DNA of 64,000 nt from Chthonomonas calidirosea T49 (GTDB taxonomy: Bacteria > Armatimonadota > Chthonomonadetes > Chthonomonadales > Chthonomonadaceae): the NCBI RefSeq assembly GCF_000427095.1, contig NC_021487.1, positions 682,001-746,000 on the forward strand. The letters run 5' to 3'. The position numbers were made by a program, and so were the translations under genes. This document shows, piece after piece, positions 12,832-57,356 of the stretch. Position 1 is the first letter of the stretch. The number at the start of each line of letters is the position of its first letter. The notes under the pieces are model-generated. The model made no database searches, was not told where the DNA came from, and worked only from the letters and a program-made list of their open reading frames with translations.

Positions 12832-14574
12832 TCAACCGCTCGTACTATCTTTGAGCGATAAACGATTTGAGAGCGACATCCTGCCTTCCTTAATAGAATA
12901 GTATCTGTCTGCTGCCAAAGGCCCTAGACGCTCCCGTAGACCGGACAACCAATGGATTTCCACATCCTCCACCACGGTAGCCGTTCCAAGACCGAACAGA
13001 ACACGCCGATCGCTTTGCGAACAGTAGCTTGACGCCCCCCGTACCCAACGGGTCTGCACTCGATCTCCTACGCGGATTGTAACCCGTGTCCCAATGGCAT
13101 CTCGATTGGTATGCGTACCTTCAAGCTGAAAGCCTATCCAATGATGGCTGCTACCCCCTACATTGCGAAAAAGCGTGAGAGGCATCTTTGGCCCGCTAAC
13201 GAGAATATCAGGTCGCCCATCATTATTATAGTCTCCTACCGCCAGTCCGCGTGTTACGCGAGGTATCTGCAAATCGCCACCCCTATCTCGATCCTCTACG
13301 AAATGCCCATCGCCTCGATTATGTAATAAAATCTGGCGCTCTCGGTACGTCACCCGACCCCGATCCCCCAAAACATCGTTGATATGGCCGTTCCCCAAAA
13401 CTAAATCCAGATATCCATCAAGATCGTAATCGAGACATTCAAGACCAAAGGTCAAATAAGGCTGACTCGCATTGCCTACACTCACAGGATCGGGCATAAA
13501 CGAAAAAGTCCCATCCCCATTGTTTCGAAAGTAGGATCGTGGTTGATGGCTGAAGTTGCCGACGAAGAGATCAGGTAAACCGTGATTCGTTAGGTCTGCT
13601 GCCACAACGCCCATCCCAGATAGAGCCTCTCCCTCAGGCCCTACCGCAACTCCAGCTTGAACGGCCACCTCCTTAAAATGCCCGTTGTGTTGATTTTGTA
13701 ATAGCCAGTTCGGTAACATATCGTTAGTAACGTACAGATCGGGCCAGCCGTCGTTGTCGTAGTCCAAATCTACAACCCCTAAGGCTTTTCCAACGAGTTG
13801 AGCTAACCCCGCCTCCTTGGTTACATCCGTAAAGGTTCCATCTCGGTTGTTATGGTAAAGAACACAGGTGTCCCCTAAATACTCCGTCGGCAAACAGTAC
13901 ACCAGCTCCCCTCTTTCGTCGGCACAGGGCCGATCCACATCTGGAAACCAAGAGACATAATGACAGACAAAAAGATCAAGCCACCCATCCTTATCATAGT
14001 CAAACCAACAAGCGCTTGTTGCCCAGTGGGGCTCTCCCCTTTGTACCAGCCCTGCTTCCCGGGTTACCTCGTGAAAGTGTCCCTTATCGTTCCGAAACAG
14101 ACGAACTCCCCCATAAGTCGTCACCAACAAGGCTGGCCAACCCGTATTAAGATAGTCACCGACGGCTACTCCCTGCCCGTATCCCATATCCACCGCAAGC
14201 CCAACATCGGCCGTCACATCCTCAAACGTTCCATCCCCCCGATTCCGATAGAGTGCAGACGGAGGACGGGGCCTCGGCACACTTCCAGGTGCCGGGCCGC
14301 CTTGGACAGCAAAAATATCAAGTAGTCCATCTCTATCGAAATCGAGAAATGCACATCCTCCTCCCGTCGTCTCCACAAACCGATGCTGGGGAGAGGCGTC
14401 GTTATCATAACGAAAATGCAATCGGGCTTCTTTGGTGACGTCTCGAAACGGCCCTGGGTAGTGGGATGGATGCAGGGTCAGACGCCAGCGAATAAACCCA
14501 GCACAGGTTGCCCCAATAGCCAGTCCTAAGCTCCTCAGCATGTACCGGCGCGTCATTTTTGTAGACATAGGCAT
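12832..14574 (-). CDS. Exported FG-GAP (VCBS) / ASPIC-UnbV repeat protein
   Basis: A 580-residue secreted beta-propeller protein. The N-terminus (TRRYMLRSLGLAIGATCAGF) resembles a Tat signal. From residue 60 to about 470 there are repeated FG-GAP/VCBS blades with the calcium-binding pattern DxDxDGxxD or DYDNDGWPDL, for example LDFDRDGLLDIF, FDYDKDGWLDLF, LDYDNDGWPDLY and GDYNNDGRPDIL. The C-terminal 75 residues match the ASPIC/UnbV domain (IGTRVTIRVGDRVQTRWV, EIHWLSGLRERL). Family members are extracellular and their biochemical role is mostly unknown. The ATG at 14574 is used, although the in-frame Met 14556 just before TRRY is also possible. Confidence 0.9.
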   Translation of the reverse strand: MPMSTKMTRRYMLRSLGLAIGATCAGFIRWRLTLHPSHYPGPFRDVTKEARLHFRYDNDASPQHRFVETTGGGCAFLDFDRDGLLDIFAVQGGPAPGSVPRPRPPSALYRNRGDGTFEDVTADVGLAVDMGYGQGVAVGDYLNTGWPALLVTTYGGVRLFRNDKGHFHEVTREAGLVQRGEPHWATSACWFDYDKDGWLDLFVCHYVSWFPDVDRPCADERGELVYCLPTEYLGDTCVLYHNNRDGTFTDVTKEAGLAQLVGKALGVVDLDYDNDGWPDLYVTNDMLPNWLLQNQHNGHFKEVAVQAGVAVGPEGEALSGMGVVAADLTNHGLPDLFVGNFSHQPRSYFRNNGDGTFSFMPDPVSVGNASQPYLTFGLECLDYDLDGYLDLVLGNGHINDVLGDRGRVTYRERQILLHNRGDGHFVEDRDRGGDLQIPRVTRGLAVGDYNNDGRPDILVSGPKMPLTLFRNVGGSSHHWIGFQLEGTHTNRDAIGTRVTIRVGDRVQTRWVRGASSYCSQSDRRVLFGLGTATVVEDVEIHWLSGLRERLGPLAADRYYSIKEGRMSLSNRLSLKDSTSG

Positions 14575-14809
14575 GCAACTCGATCTACCGGAACAAGTTT
14601 CCCTAAGCTTTCAGCCCTTACTTCGACGCAGCTCCTACGACTTCCTGCTTCAACGCAACCTCAATGAACTTCTAATCGCTCTTAGCGCGTCATCTTCTAC
14701 AGAGCGTGCCAATGTGCGAGTGCCTTCTGGGTAAGCTCTTTCGACACCTCTTCCAGAAATACTGCGATGCACTCTTCGCATTTATTACCAACAAGGAGGT
14801 ACTCGAAAC

Positions 14810-15220
14810 ATGAAACGCTCAAAAGCAGCTGTCTTCTCCCTCTTGGGAGCAGTAGCCGTTCTTGGCGGATTGGCCTACGCCCAAGATCAGGGCGGCTCGC
14901 CAGACCAAAATACACCGCAACAAACGGCCGCCTCTAAAAAGGTGGAGGCGATGGTCAAAAAGATCAAGGACGGAGATAACTACAAGTGCTGCATCAAAGG
15001 AAAATGCGACTATTGTGCCGTGCATATGGGCATGTGCAACTGTGGCGACAACGCCGCAAATGGAAAGCCGGTGTGCATCAACTGCAAAGGAGGTTGGGAC
15101 ACCGGGTTAGGAGCCGTTATGGGGAAAACCAACGACGACATCAAACCCCTGCCCCAAAATGGCGACGTCAAACCGGATATGCCATCGGATAACGGCACAA
15201 ATAACGACGACAACAAGTAA
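14810..15220 (+). CDS. Small secreted cysteine-rich protein, unknown function
   Basis: A 136-residue protein with a clear signal peptide (cleavage after AYA, residue 24), a charged helix (about 42-55) and a compact Cys core: Cys60, 61, 66, 69, 76, 78, 89 and 92, with His72. The spacing CC-x4-C-x2-C-x2-H-x3-C-x-C and a later C-x2-C suggests a metal site or tight disulphide fold. The tail after residue 105 is Asp/Asn/Pro-rich and probably disordered. It is preceded by AAGGAGGT, a full anti-SD match, and followed by a strong terminator, so it is likely an abundant monocistronic product. I do not recognise the family. Confidence 0.8.
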   Translation: MKRSKAAVFSLLGAVAVLGGLAYAQDQGGSPDQNTPQQTAASKKVEAMVKKIKDGDNYKCCIKGKCDYCAVHMGMCNCGDNAANGKPVCINCKGGWDTGLGAVMGKTNDDIKPLPQNGDVKPDMPSDNGTNNDDNK

Positions 15221-15248
15221 CTCCCTTACCGATACTCCGACTATTTCA

Positions 15249-15280
15249 GGGTCAAGAGCGGTTAGCTCTTGACCCTTTTT
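15249..15280 (+). terminator. Strong intrinsic terminator
   Basis: A perfect 11-bp stem (15249-15259 with 15265-15275), five-base loop GGTTA, and a run of five T residues, starting 29 bases after the stop of the Cys-rich protein gene. It also separates that gene from the convergent BNR gene whose stop is at 15289. Confidence 0.93.
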
Positions 15281-15288
15281 GCAAACGA

Positions 15289-17994
15289 CTAGGGCCCGAT
15301 CTCGCTCTCCCCACCGCTATCTGGGTCGGTATACGGCTCGTCCGTCTCCTCTTCTGAGAGCGCCAGGTTGCCGGATATCGTCACTTTTTGCGACTGCTTG
15401 AATTTGCCGACCTGTAGCGTTATCGTGTAGACGCCTGGCTTCACGAACCGCGGGGGCGCTCCACGCCGCTCTGGGCCTCTCTCCTCCTCTTGCCTCTGCA
15501 ACATGTCCCAAATGAGTGTCTGCATCCCAGGATAACGTTCCCCAGAAAGTCTGGCCACCTCTTTATTCTGTGCATCCGTTATCACAAGCGTGGGGGTCAC
15601 ATCCTCCAGCCTCGGCAACCAAAACACGATCGGTACGCCCCGTGGAGGGTTGGGCGCCACAAAATCGTGTTGACCGCTGATCTCGGTGGTCAGGGTATAC
15701 CGATACTCCAACGCAGGAGCCAAAGGAAAGAGAATAGGCTGATCCTCCTTGGGATTGGAAGCGGCCGTCTCTAACGGCGCGATGTTGTCTAGCACCCATA
15801 GACTGCGCCCATGTGTTGCTGCCACAAGCGCGTGGTCGCGTGCCTGAATGGCAAGGTCGTCTACCGCTACAGTTGGCAAATTATCGCCCAGCTTTTGCCA
15901 ATGCTGACCGCGATCGAGACTCACCCATGCGCCGAACTCGGTGCCGCAAAACAGTAGATTCGGATTCACCGGGTCTTCTCGAAAAGCCTGGATCGGCCCT
16001 TCCTTTGGTAGGTTTCCTACAATGGAACGCCAGGTCTTTCCGTAGTCCTCTGTCACAAACAGATAGGGTGCCAAGTCATCGCTTCGATGCCCATCAATGG
16101 CTACATAAGCTCGTCCGGCCACAAACTGCGACGCCACCACCCGCGACACCCAATAGTTTCTCACCTTTTCCGGCAAGTTGTCGGTTACGTTCTCCCACGT
16201 CTTTCCCTCATCTTGGGTCAGCTGCACGTTTCCATCATCGGTTCCCACCCAAATCAAGCCGCGTTGCAGCGCCGAAGGTGAAATGGTCACAATGGTTCCA
16301 TAAATCTCCGCTCCCGATCCGGTGGTCGTAATGTGAGGACCCTCCTGCTTGGAGAGATCGGGACTAATAACATCGTAGTACTTGCATTCATCATAGAAAC
16401 GAAACAGGTGGTTTCCCCCCATGTATACCACATTGTGATCAAAAGGCGAGATAGCCAACGGCGTGTTCCAGTTGAAACGATAGTCCGGCTCCCCTTCGGG
16501 CGCTATCGGATGCATGCGCCGCAGTGTCATTGTGTGTCTATCCAACCGGTAGGCCTCTCCATTCTGCGACTCGGCATAGACAATCTGAGGATCGTCCGGG
16601 TCGGAAAGCACATAGAACCCGTCGCCGGATGGGAAAGAGATCCAATCACAGTTGGTGATCCCGCGCGCATTGGTGGTGGCACTAGGCCCTGTCCAACAGC
16701 CGTTATCCTGCAACCCCCCGTAGACCCAAAACGGTTTTTGGTTATCTACGCTCACCTCATAAAACTCGCCCATGGGGAAGTTATTCACAAACTCCCATGT
16801 AGTTCCACGATCGTGCGTAACGTATAGCCCCCCATCGGTTCCAAGCCACATGTGTTCCGGATGATGAGGGTCTATCCAAAGCGCATGAAGATCAGGGTGA
16901 ACCCCTGGCGAACCATAGCCCGGTATCGCAAAGTGTTTTCCGCCATCCTTTGATACCTCAAGCCCAAATCCACAAACGTACACATAGTTCGGATCTGTCG
17001 GATCAACCCGAATCTGGCCAAAGTAGAATCCACGTGGCACCGTGCTGTTGACCCGCTTCCAGGTCGCACCTGCATCATCTGATCGAAAAACGCCACCAAA
17101 ATTGCTGGTAGGGTCAAAAAGGTCTTTAGCTCCGCCCTCGTTACAGGCAACAACCGCATAGACAATATTCGGCTGACTGGCGCATACCGAAAGGCCTATG
17201 CGCCCCACCTTCTCTGTGGGTAACCCCTTCGTGATCTTGCTCCACGTCTTCCCCCCGTCTGTGGAGCGGTAGATGCCCGAGTCGGAGCTTTCATCGTAAA
17301 AACCCCAGGGAGTACGCAAGCGACGATAGGCTGCGGCTAACAGCACATCCCCTGTCTTTCCCGCCAAAGCCACATCTATAACTCCCGTCTTCTCGTTGAT
17401 GTAAAGAACCTTCTGCCAAGTTTTACCGCCATCGGTGGTCTTAAAAAGCCCTCTCTCAGCGTTATATCCCCATAGACGTCCGGCCGCAGCTACGTAGACG
17501 ATGTTGGGGTTGTTAGGGTCAATAACGATGCGCCCGATCTCGCGCGTATCCTCTAGCCCCATGTGCTGCCAAGTTTTGCCGCCATCGGTAGACTTATAGA
17601 CGCCATCGCCCCAAGAGGAGCTGTTGCGTCCATTGGCCTCACCCGTTCCTACCCACACGATATGAGGGTCGGATGGGGCTACTGCCACAGCCCCCACAGA
17701 ACCGACCGCCTCATGGTCGAAAATCGGAGTCCATGTGTTCCCATCGTTCGTGGACTTGATCACTCCGCCCGTCCCCAAAGCCACATAGATCGTGTAGGGG
17801 TCTTTGGGGTCTACGGCGATGTCCGATATCCTTCCGCCCATCACCGCTGGGCCAATGCTGCGCCAATGCATCGTTTGCAGTACGTCTGAACGGAGACTGT
17901 GAGGCTCTTGGGCTTGCACGATACCTAAAGAGAGAAACGACAGAAAAACCCATAAAAACAATAGATTCCGCAAAAGCACTTGTTTGAAATCCAT
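15289..17994 (-). CDS. Secreted sortilin/BNR-type beta-propeller protein
   Basis: A 901-residue exported protein related to VPS10/sortilin-type glycosyl-hydrolase-like propellers. A signal peptide (about residues 1-29, ending VQAQEP) leads into repeated BNR/Asp-box blades with the S-x-D-G-G-x-T-W signature: STNDGNTWTP, STDGGKTWQH, TTDGGKTWQK, STDGGKTWSK, SDDAGATWKR, THDRGTTWEF, TQDEGKTWEN and SLDRGQHWQK. The last 160 residues form a sandwich resembling the C-terminal domains of such proteins. GAGGTG lies nine bases before the ATG at 17994; the longer frame to 18072 adds a stretch with no signal features. Enzymatic activity is not implied; many homologues probably bind glycans or peptides. Confidence 0.9.
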   Translation of the reverse strand: MDFKQVLLRNLLFLWVFLSFLSLGIVQAQEPHSLRSDVLQTMHWRSIGPAVMGGRISDIAVDPKDPYTIYVALGTGGVIKSTNDGNTWTPIFDHEAVGSVGAVAVAPSDPHIVWVGTGEANGRNSSSWGDGVYKSTDGGKTWQHMGLEDTREIGRIVIDPNNPNIVYVAAAGRLWGYNAERGLFKTTDGGKTWQKVLYINEKTGVIDVALAGKTGDVLLAAAYRRLRTPWGFYDESSDSGIYRSTDGGKTWSKITKGLPTEKVGRIGLSVCASQPNIVYAVVACNEGGAKDLFDPTSNFGGVFRSDDAGATWKRVNSTVPRGFYFGQIRVDPTDPNYVYVCGFGLEVSKDGGKHFAIPGYGSPGVHPDLHALWIDPHHPEHMWLGTDGGLYVTHDRGTTWEFVNNFPMGEFYEVSVDNQKPFWVYGGLQDNGCWTGPSATTNARGITNCDWISFPSGDGFYVLSDPDDPQIVYAESQNGEAYRLDRHTMTLRRMHPIAPEGEPDYRFNWNTPLAISPFDHNVVYMGGNHLFRFYDECKYYDVISPDLSKQEGPHITTTGSGAEIYGTIVTISPSALQRGLIWVGTDDGNVQLTQDEGKTWENVTDNLPEKVRNYWVSRVVASQFVAGRAYVAIDGHRSDDLAPYLFVTEDYGKTWRSIVGNLPKEGPIQAFREDPVNPNLLFCGTEFGAWVSLDRGQHWQKLGDNLPTVAVDDLAIQARDHALVAATHGRSLWVLDNIAPLETAASNPKEDQPILFPLAPALEYRYTLTTEISGQHDFVAPNPPRGVPIVFWLPRLEDVTPTLVITDAQNKEVARLSGERYPGMQTLIWDMLQRQEEERGPERRGAPPRFVKPGVYTITLQVGKFKQSQKVTISGNLALSEEETDEPYTDPDSGGESEIGP

Positions 17995-18377
17995 CAAGGT
18001 ACTCACCTCACCAGGATTGAATGATCGGCTCTTTGGCGACGGGCCAACTAAAACATAGAATACCCAATGCAAGGGCCTTTCTCAGGTTTAGGGCTGCCCC
18101 TATGCTCCCTCCAGACAAGCGATAGAGAAGTTTGTTGTGCCATCAGCGCCGATAATTTTCTTGAAAGAGACCTCTACAATAAAAACTTTTTCCCGCGAAG
18201 TCGGCTAATGCCTTTTGAGGACGGGACAGAGCGTGGAATGGTTTTATCTATTAACATAGAGATCAGCCCTCATCTACCTGCAACGCTCAAATCGATAGCC
18301 CTCGCTCTCCTCTCCAGCGTCACCGTTGTCTACCCTCCCGACAAACTACTCAAGGTCTCCCTGAAACCTTCGACACG
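17995..18377. other. Divergent spacer without a recognisable gene
   Basis: Between the start of the BNR-propeller gene and the first recognisable part of the GloVer pseudogene I see no conserved coding sequence, RNA gene, terminator or convincing promoter. An open frame runs through it from 18067 but codes for nothing recognisable before about 18580; the lost 5' end of the pseudogene may lie here. Confidence 0.5.
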
Positions 18378-19373
18378 GTGTTCCCCTATGTTCACACTTA
18401 CGACATGTCTTTCCATCCTAATCCCTTGTTCTACTCTCCTCTCTCTCATCTGCTCTATGGCACCTTCACCTTCCATCGCTCCCTCGCCCCTGAGTTCCTC
18501 TTCGTCCTTGAGCCCAACGGCACTTACTTCCAAATCCTCCACTCCTTCGCTCCTCTGCATCCCGACTTCGTCTAATGCCGATGGTGCCTTCCCCTTCGCT
18601 CCCCTCACCCAAGATGCTAACGGTGCCCTCTACGGTACCACCTCCCTCGGAGACCCCGCCTGTGACGGTACCCTTTTCGCCCTCCAAACCCATGGTACCC
18701 ACTTCCAAATCCTCCATGCCTTCTCCGGACCTGATGCCGCTCTGCCCTATGGAGGGGTAGTGGAGAGCAAAGACGGTTGGCTGTATGGAGTGACCGAAGA
18801 AGGAGGCAAGTATGGCAAGGGAGTGGTGTATCGGGTTCGGACAGATGGGAGTGGGTATAGCGTGTTGCATGCGTTTTCCGGGGAAGAGGGCGCCTATCCG
18901 TTGTTGGTGGAGTTGGTGTTAGGGGAAGGAGGTTGGTTGTATGGGACGACGAGTGCTGGAGGGGTGAATGGGAAGGGAGTAGTGTTTGGTGTGAAGGTAG
19001 ATGGGAGTGGTTACAAGGTATTGCATGCGTTTGCTGGAGGCGAGAGCGATGGTGCCTATGGGATAGGGCAGTTGGTGTTAGTGGGGAAGAGATTATATGG
19101 CGTGACGGGAGGAGGGGGACAGAAGCAAGAGGGTGTGGTGTTTGGGGTGAGCGTGGATGGGGTGGGCTACAGGCTGTTGCAGCGTTTAGGGGAGAAGCAG
19201 AGGGGGAAGTGGCCTTTGGTCTAGTGTTAGGAGGCAATGGTAGATTGTATGAGGTAACGGAAGGAGGTGGGAGCCAGGATGCGGGATTAATCTATCGTTT
19301 AAGGTTAGACGGGAGCGGTTTTCAGGTGGTGTATGATTTTGGCAATAGGCTGAGCGCCAGATACTCCCACTGA
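18378..19373 (+). pseudogene. Frameshifted GloVer-repeat (beta-propeller) gene remnant
   Basis: Six recognisable repeats of the GloVer type (LYGTT..GG, then V/F..DG.GY/F..LHAF) are spread over two reading frames. The LYG landmark codons lie at 18453, 18628, 18781, 18937, 19093 and 19245. The four central ones are in phase and 153-156 bases apart; the first (175 bases) and last (152 bases) are out of phase. The first frame stops with TAA just before 18576 and the middle frame stops at 19222, so there are at least two frameshifts, near 18570 and 19200. No signal peptide or start is identifiable. Intact homologues are secreted repeat proteins of unknown role. The coding strand flips from C-rich to G-rich in the middle. 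Sequencing error in skewed DNA is the main alternative to true decay. Confidence 0.75.
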
Positions 19374-19429
19374 AAGGGCGCTTTCTACCATCTTCCGCTC
19401 CCCTACAACGCATCGGTGGCTCCCACCAA

Positions 19430-20482
19430 CTACTTTAGAAACTGAGCCACATTGGCCTTCGTCACGATAACACATGGAGTCTTTACCACTGGCGGGACCT
19501 TTTTGCCGCTGAGATAGTCGTTAATTGTGTCAATAACGGCCTTTCCTATCAGGTCAGGCTGGGTCGCCAAACAGGCCGTATACTTTCCATCGCGGATCGC
19601 CTCCAGTGAGGGTCTATTACCATCAATGCCGATGGTCAAAAGTTGCCTTCCGGCATCTCTCGCCGCCTTGGCCGCTCCAAGTGCCATCTCATCACTACAT
19701 CCAAAAACAAGGTCGAGATTTGGGAAACGCTGAAGCCAATCTCGTGTAATCGCCGTGCCATCGGCTCGAAGCCAATGACCGTTCTGCTCGGCGACGATGT
19801 GGATATCCGGGTACTTCTTAAGCGCGTCCTTAAATCCTCCCGCACGAAGGTTTGTGTGGTCTCCCGGCTCTCCATCGAGTATCGCCACGTTGCCCCGATA
19901 GGCTCCATACTTTTGCTTTAGTAGCTCTGCAGCCTCCTCGCCGCACTTGCGCCCACCCTCGTACTCGTCATAACCAATGTACGACACCACCTGCCCCCCG
20001 CCTTCAACTGGGGATATCTGATTGTGCACAAAAATGGGGATATGAGCCCGATTGCAGTTCTTAATAATATTGACCAGCGCCTGCGGATTGATCCCACATA
20101 CGCTGATCGCCGCCGGATGGCGCTGAATGATGTCTTGCACCAACGCCACCTGCCCCGTGTAGTCGCTTTCACTGGAAGGAGCCTGATCGATAATGGGAGG
20201 AAGCCCAAGACGTTTGGCCTCTTCAGCTGCAGCCGCCGCCAGGGTAACATGAAATGGACTTGTCTTTGCCGGTGAAACCACCGCAATGACGCGTTGGCTC
20301 AGAGCGCCGTTCCCTCCCTGTCTAGAGGAGGTCGCTCCCCCCGAGCCAGAAGGGTTACTGCTGCAGCCCGCTAGCGCAAAGAAGAGCAGGCCTATCATCA
20401 GACCTCTTTGGAAGGCAGTCCGCCTAGCAATAACGTCCCTCTCAACACGCAGCAGCTTTCCCTCAGCAAATGAACGGTTCAT
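19430..20482 (-). CDS. Sugar-binding lipoprotein of a ribose-type ABC importer
   Basis: Periplasmic or membrane-tethered solute-binding protein of the Peripla_BP_4 (RbsB-like) family, 350 residues. The lipobox LAGC places the lipidated Cys at residue 40, followed by a Ser/Gly linker; the two-lobed binding domain (about 65-350) has VIAVVSPAKTSPFHVTLAAA at its start, ISVCGINPQALVNI, and LDLVFGCSDEMALGAAKAA. Its ATG overlaps the TGA of the permease gene (ATGA), so it is translationally coupled. The n-region before the hydrophobic stretch is long, so an internal start cannot be excluded. Ligand is likely a sugar released by the upstream GH172 enzyme, but binding residues were not mapped. Confidence 0.92.
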   Translation of the reverse strand: MNRSFAEGKLLRVERDVIARRTAFQRGLMIGLLFFALAGCSSNPSGSGGATSSRQGGNGALSQRVIAVVSPAKTSPFHVTLAAAAAEEAKRLGLPPIIDQAPSSESDYTGQVALVQDIIQRHPAAISVCGINPQALVNIIKNCNRAHIPIFVHNQISPVEGGGQVVSYIGYDEYEGGRKCGEEAAELLKQKYGAYRGNVAILDGEPGDHTNLRAGGFKDALKKYPDIHIVAEQNGHWLRADGTAITRDWLQRFPNLDLVFGCSDEMALGAAKAARDAGRQLLTIGIDGNRPSLEAIRDGKYTACLATQPDLIGKAVIDTINDYLSGKKVPPVVKTPCVIVTKANVAQFLK

Positions 20483-57151: not shown

Positions 57152-57266
57152 GCGGGAGGGTTCCTCCAATTCAACCCACAGCTGTTTCGGGGAGCTGAAT
57201 GCTGCCTCACTTTCCTCTATACCCCGAAACAACAAATGCTTACACCAACTAGGGACGATAGCGAAG

Positions 57267-57356
57267 CGGAGTGAGAGGGATTCGAACCCTCGAATGGTCT
57301 TTCGACCATTACACGATTTCCAGTCGTGCTCCTTAGGCCAGCTCGGACATCACTCC
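57267..57356 (-). tRNA. tRNA-Ser(GGA)
   Basis: Ninety bases fold as a class II tRNA: acceptor stem GGAGTGA with TCACTCC, anticodon arm ACGACTGGAAATCGT with anticodon GGA, a long variable arm (TGGTCGAAAGACCA) and T-arm GAGGGTTCGAATCCCTC. Discriminator is G, as expected for Ser. The 3' CCA is not encoded. A full-consensus promoter lies 17 bases upstream, on the minus strand. Confidence 0.97.

Follow-up and report, generated by a model that had tools for sequence, protein, structure and literature searches.

A two-armed strand-composition island in a broken GloVer repeat gene of Chthonomonas calidirosea T49 and its possible link to recombination

The locus and its two arms

The window that we analysed is a stretch of 64,000 nucleotides (positions 682,001 to 746,000) of the genome of the thermophilic soil bacterium Chthonomonas calidirosea T49, a genome that forms one contig of 3,437,861 bases. 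Between two minus-strand genes it holds a GloVer gene, a member of the Gloeo_Verruco family of choice-of-anchor tandem repeat proteins (TIGR03803), in which the plus strand changes from extremely C-rich to extremely G-rich (Table 1). The only tRNA of the window, a tRNA-Ser (gga), lies at 57266-57356 on the minus strand.

Table 1. Features of the island and its neighbours (positions in the window)
Feature	Position	Strand	Remarks	Basis
C-rich (pyrimidine-rich) arm	18290..18747	+	skew about -0.54; GloVer repeats coded in two frames	G-C walk, block list
G-rich (purine-rich) arm	18748..19357	+	skew about +0.62; codes GloVer repeats	G-C walk, block list
Switch point	18747..18748	.	15 bases past one GloVer repeat match (end 18732), 8 into the next (from 18739)	
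GloVer-like coding piece	18375..18572 (also given to 18575)	+	frame 3	
Main GloVer coding piece	18574..19224	+	frame 1; ORF listed as 18067-19224	
Last GloVer repeat	19215..19373	+	frame 3, past the second frame change	
Sortilin/BNR-type repeat protein gene	15289-18072	-	island neighbour	
Periplasmic sugar-binding-type protein gene	19430-20482	-	island neighbour	

A profile search placed one TIGR03803 match in the left arm (18583-18732, 54.3 bits) and four on the right side (18739-18885, 18910-19041, 19063-19179 and 19218-19343). Taken together, 18613-19224 reached 150.3 bits (E 8.8e-45), which lies above the curated cut-off of 44 bits and makes the gene a GloVer member. The last repeat stayed under that cut-off (39.4 bits, E 3.7e-10). 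The first coding piece alone gave no TIGR03803 or other NCBIfam match, and resembles the GloVer gene L034 of the same genome (phmmer E 5e-22 in a small set). Indeed, among the GloVer loci of this genome and of relatives that we compared, L034 is the nearest gene to all four coding pieces. The right-arm repeats are identical to one another at 16-30 of 48-50 residues with moderate codon agreement, and a recent duplication of repeats within each arm was therefore rejected.

The gene is broken in frame at no fewer than two places, near 18573 and 19210, and possibly at a third near 18375. GloVer-type proteins typically carry an N-terminal export signal and a C-terminal anchor; a single intact frame with both was not found at this gene. 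It could be a GloVer remnant or a gene that bears errors, decayed in the one case and mis-sequenced in the other. The second frame change is close to a run of G, where a 454 error is likely, and the other frameshifts in the island may be 454 errors as well.

The cumulative G-C walk of the plus strand falls steadily from about 18290 to its minimum at 18747 and then rises steadily to a maximum at 19354. The preliminary description of this DNA had reported an extreme flip from C-rich to G-rich within a single repeat family, and this is real, with GloVer repeats coded in both arms; its hand counts (27 C and 8 G at 18481-18540, 31 G and 4 C at 19081-19140, plus strand) are exact. Its boundaries had to be moved: the switch lies at 18747 and not near 18765, and 18378, the start that had been given, is about 90 bp inside the left arm. 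With arms of 300 bp the flip measures 1.12, while the next in the 64-kb window reaches 0.476, the right edge of the island itself excepted. The G+C content of the arms remains at 0.52-0.65.

The two halves had also been proposed to pair with each other as single strands. They can do so, with a folding energy of -294 kcal/mol where 20 other windows of 740 nt average -231, but no better than their composition gives. When synonymous codons were shuffled within the arms, 14 of 100 shuffles folded at least as well, and a dinucleotide shuffle within the halves gave z -1.95. In the reverse-complement alignment 35 of 200 synonymous shuffles were at least as good for this island, and 80 of 200 were as good for the second island described below. 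We consequently rejected selection for a palindrome or hairpin, the arms of neither island being complementary beyond composition. Inverted repeats between 17900 and 19600 amount to two 12-nt pairs, neither of them at the switch. G-quadruplexes were rejected as well: one four-run G3 motif lies in the left arm on the minus strand, and none in the right arm or in the arms of the second island.

Reach of the flip and its rarity

The fourfold degenerate sites carry C43 T22 G5 A2 in the left arm and G53 A21 T16 C14 in the right arm. The best-split test finds G:C ratios at these sites of 5:43 (skew -0.79) before the flip and 49:11 (skew +0.63) after it. The pattern is a switch from pyrimidines to purines, with G+C little altered. 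Split into codon positions 1/2/3, the skews of the left arm are -0.33/-0.74/-0.65 in one frame and +0.10/-0.48/-0.94 in the other; those of the right arm are +0.71/+0.60/+0.64 and +0.57/+0.65/+0.12. In this island and in the second one the skew changes at codon positions 1, 2 and 3 alike, with a single exception: in one frame of the left arm, position 1 is near zero. A change of synonymous choice, as the preliminary description had it, is hence borne out, but the change is not confined to synonymous sites. Because all codon positions and the fourfold sites shift, synonymous and amino-acid-changing sites both follow the flip.

For a measure of rarity we surveyed 80 stretches of 20 kb from the same genome together with the window, giving 81 stretches and 1.664 Mb, or 48% of the genome. 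Five stretches (L087-L091) had been chosen for C-poor 60-mers; one of them, L090, is where the second island first came to light. No fewer than six stretches taken later were placed to include C-poor 78-mer sites, while the other copy of the second island came from an evenly placed stretch, L113. Scored by the weaker of two adjacent 200-bp arms, the three strongest islands in the 1.664 Mb are those in L090 (0.593, genome position 118,950), in L113 (0.585, 466,672) and in the window (0.491, 700,727). The next flip from C to G reaches 0.345, and the best flip in the reverse order, at 0.348, is the edge of the L090 island. All three strong islands are C-rich and then G-rich; none is reversed. Since L090 and L113 are copies of each other and homologues are counted once, the class comprises two cases. 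Similar flips in many unrelated genes, which would have spoken against a special feature, were not seen: there are three in 81 stretches, two of them mutual copies.

Synonymous sites were compared over frames of at least 150 or at least 200 residues, picked mechanically and without curation. In these tests the window ORF 18067-19224 was replaced by in-frame pieces, except that the permutation scan of 1,149 frames kept both; among the 1,133 rows of the best-split test are the window pieces, and the L090 gene is entered there twice, once at full length. At fourfold sites the window island has the highest best-split score of the 1,133 frames (z 7.36), and the L090 gene scores 6.04 over its full frame and 5.26 over a shorter ORF. 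The next unrelated frame, flagellin-like, has z 4.96, and all remaining frames stay at or below 4.30 in size. In the permutation scan an RHS-type gene (5.82) outscores the window island (5.55), which ranks second, and in a purine/pyrimidine scan with short arms of 24 sites the island leads narrowly (0.566 vs 0.539).

Beyond the neighbouring codon the synonymous G/C choice shows almost no correlation (1,013 frames), so that block switching is not a general habit of this genome. A genome-wide drift of G/C choice from the 5' to the 3' end of genes was rejected, the change going from C to G in 514 of 1,014 frames with a mean half difference of 0.003. One-sided skew blocks elsewhere follow protein composition, as in a Pro/Ser/Thr-rich tail and a HEAT-like repeat protein (names read from translations); amino-acid composition accounts for such blocks, but not for the fourfold sites of the island. 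The one-sided blocks in L131 and L089 have no near-identical copies and code for proteins of biased composition.

Two further genes with uneven skew were seen on the way. A frame that reads as flagellin-like in translation (L127 8404-9615) passes from a fourfold skew of -0.64 to +0.83 and contains a masked N run. RHS-repeat genes at L106 10976-14203 and L135 about 14289-17239 share near-identical parts (98% over 1.9 kb) and have the strongest codon-skew unevenness of the 1,149 frames, from C-ending to G-ending codons.

No such flip occurs in the genome's five other GloVer genes. Of the GloVer loci in relatives, L055 ranks highest both by raw score (0.333) and by synonymous split (z 4.86); it joins a C-ending block to a neutral one. 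The paralogue L034 has a split of 4.50. The family is somewhat uneven, yet without a flip of the strength seen here. Over 400 kb drawn from four genomes in the same family the best arm score is 0.253, and among 284 frames from these relatives the best split is 4.30, with no case of island strength (0 of 284). This rate does not differ significantly from that of the T49 genome, as two loci per roughly 1,130 frames predict about half a case in 284.

A search of the genome with window 18250-19400 returned the self-match and no DNA-similar second copy. There was no protein match in the plasmid collection, no relative in a scan of genome contigs and no RNA family match in Rfam at the island. Among the literature entries listed, none reported an intragenic strand-composition flip of this kind, and none dealt with Gloeo_Verruco.

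The second island and other duplicated tracts

The second island exists in two copies, at L090 8684-9314 (genome 118,684-119,314, in a minus-strand gene) and at L113 16304-16938 (genome 466,304-466,938). The blocks of 631 and 635 bp are about 99% identical, differing by three substitutions and six single-base gaps. All of these differences lie beyond the first 358 bases, and in five of the gaps the single base is G. The flanks are only 50% and 55% identical, and the genes are membrane-protein paralogues. The L113 gene has a PMT_2-type match (3.6e-07), while that of L090 (0.0022) is below the cut-off; of 17 genomes of the family that were searched, T49 among them, 16 contain relatives of these genes. 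This near-identical block between diverged homologous flanks is an ectopic gene-conversion tract with sharp edges, of the kind known between paralogues. The island fills this tract and is coextensive with it. In L113 the tract ends in a short third block, C-rich, at about 16885-16938, and thereby departs from a pure two-arm shape.

None of 20 orthologous loci in relatives carries the second island. At the switch point the relatives have the motif ALMDxP, or one near it, wherever their frame was recovered; at about half of their loci the wrong frame had been picked, and those rows are uninformative. L113 has the motif and L090 lacks it, while the L113 gene is frame-broken in its G-rich arm. Both copies are thus damaged, at different places, and the damage may be real or technical. 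The C-rich arm of both copies also holds an identical acidic antisense ORF of 105 residues (L090 8989-9306, plus strand; L113 16312-16629, minus strand), probably a by-product of the C-ending codons.

A further ectopic conversion tract, between two FG-GAP/ASPIC genes (L095 10208-10681 and L132 2531-3004), with about 350 bp at 98-100% identity between flanks of about 50%, is equally sharp, and its skew is ordinary. Conversion alone therefore does not make an island. Of the six duplicated locus pairs with at least 88% identity in the surveyed stretches, only one carries an island; a seventh row of that comparison is a single place covered by two stretches and was not counted.

Possible origins of the islands

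Bias in strand composition is normally attributed to replication or transcription acting over long distances. The order of the arms, C-rich to G-rich on the plus strand, is also that of an origin-type GC-skew minimum, but the island is about 1 kb long, has sharp edges and exceeds the mean skew over 20 kb (about -0.11 to +0.14) several times in amplitude. A two-armed island of a kilobase inside one gene, with a second case in a conversion tract, suggests a local process that can overwrite codon choice. A closer likeness is found in the vls system of Borrelia (vlsE and its silent cassettes). The part of PMC11499132 that deals with the cassettes describes a high GC skew (mean 0.52), a G-rich coding strand, gene conversion and frameshifts in cassettes. 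Our island likewise is locally skewed coding DNA out of line with its genome and has frameshifts, and its right arm has vls-like skew. Its left arm is opposite in sign, however, and as far as that account describes vls, a cassette array of one sign with an expression site and inverted repeats stands against two arms of opposite sign in one gene without an array. There are no additional DNA-similar copies in the genome and no inverted repeats at the switch, as a head-to-head junction would have.

We tentatively favour, with a probability of roughly 0.3, that the island is a rare strand-asymmetric feature at the nucleotide level which is tied to recombination and reminiscent of the skewed vls cassettes. 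This reading builds on the flip, its reach into synonymous and non-synonymous sites, its rarity, the common C-to-G order and the conversion tract of the second island. In both islands the flip takes in every codon position, as expected of a process at the DNA level. Two observations make recombination the likeliest setting: the second island coincides with a conversion tract, and in Borrelia vls conversion and skewed DNA occur together. Single-base indels or frame changes are present in the islands. A strand-asymmetric process would have shifted the sites that the protein spares toward pyrimidines left of 18747 and toward purines right of it. On both sides the purine- and G-rich strand would then be the one whose 5' to 3' direction leads away from the switch. 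The segment would be, or would have been, prone to gene conversion, with recombination as the most likely driver, and repeated repair synthesis or strand exchange starting near the switch point could leave opposite biases on its two sides. Recombination may cause the composition or be favoured by it, and the window island would have the same history as the second one. Gene conversion, named as a possible cause in the preliminary description, is seen for the second island; the window island lacks a partner in the genome, which counts against the recombination reading. One may further speculate that the mirrored islands, always C and then G, mark recombination-coupled synthesis that runs outward repeatedly from a fixed point and rewrites synonymous sites oppositely, but this stronger form is doubtful. 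If the tie to recombination holds, conversion-prone sites could be found from sequence, and the finding would bear on the skew of the vls cassettes.

A strong rival, nearly as likely as the recombination reading, is a chimaera formed at a repeat boundary from two GloVer genes, or parts of them, whose codon preferences were opposite; the flip would be the fusion scar, and a clear case of codon bias recording gene mosaicism. The switch at 18747 is close to a repeat boundary (18732/18739), the left repeats r0 and r1 are identical at 18 of 42 aligned residues compared with 8 to 18 of 43 to 49 in left-right pairs, and the genome does contain mosaic genes with codon heterogeneity (the RHS-type gene in L106, the conversion pair L095/L132). 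The common nearest gene of all four coding pieces weakens this origin, which had also been raised in the preliminary description. Additionally, whole-frame fourfold skew spans -0.60 to +0.61 in 1,137 frames, leaving no uniformly C-ending frame to match the left arm, whereas the right arm has a near match, and it would be a coincidence if near mirror-image arms had arisen twice. That the island is simply the tail of ordinary variation, the most uneven of about a thousand genes aided by clustered amino acids, is unlikely. Amino-acid use does contribute strongly, as positions 1 and 2 flip too, protein composition explains the one-sided blocks elsewhere, and short-window purine flips come nearly as large, with an RHS-type gene slightly higher in the permutation scan; but the gap that separates the two islands from all other frames, in fourfold z as in raw arm score (0.49-0.59 vs 0.345), largely refutes it.

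Selection on the RNA or on one DNA strand, for a giant hairpin or a two-way Rho-type terminator, is quite improbable. Rho prefers C-rich, G-poor RNA, and transcripts entering from either side would first expose such a stretch; the island sits between two minus-strand genes, its fold is much more stable than the average of the 20 other windows, and a 2026 paper (PMC13323073) links purine bias to premature termination. Against this, the arms pair no better than expected from composition, termination would harm the translated gene that contains the second island, and Rfam has no matching family. Cytosine deamination on exposed strands, at a local origin, in divergent transcription or in an R-loop, is very improbable as the maker of the arms. 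Bidirectional origins and divergent non-template strands do show a C-poor strand that leads outward from one point. Changes from C to T, however, would lower G+C and yield strands rich in G and T, while the arms keep their G+C and their fourfold sites are pyrimidine-rich on the left and purine-leaning on the right. Directional mutation in this simple form, which the preliminary description had also listed, does not fit. Least probable is an artefact of assembly or sequencing. The genome was built from 454 Titanium and Sanger reads at 20x (Table 1 of PMC4959169), the gaps of the second island are mostly single G, the L113 copy is frame-broken and each copy leaves the family consensus at a different place. 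Yet both arms code recognisable GloVer repeats, the copies of the second island code conserved family motifs, and artefacts do not rewrite hundreds of sites, though the frameshifts may well be of that kind.

Besides the tracts described above, the surveyed stretches contain many segments of 100-200 bp (about 165 bp) that are 75-83% identical to each other (L088, L093, L096, L102, L105, L112, L115, L131, L135, L140 and others). They are probably pilin-like leader segments, given that the one in L112 starts a frame with a prepilin-like N terminus.
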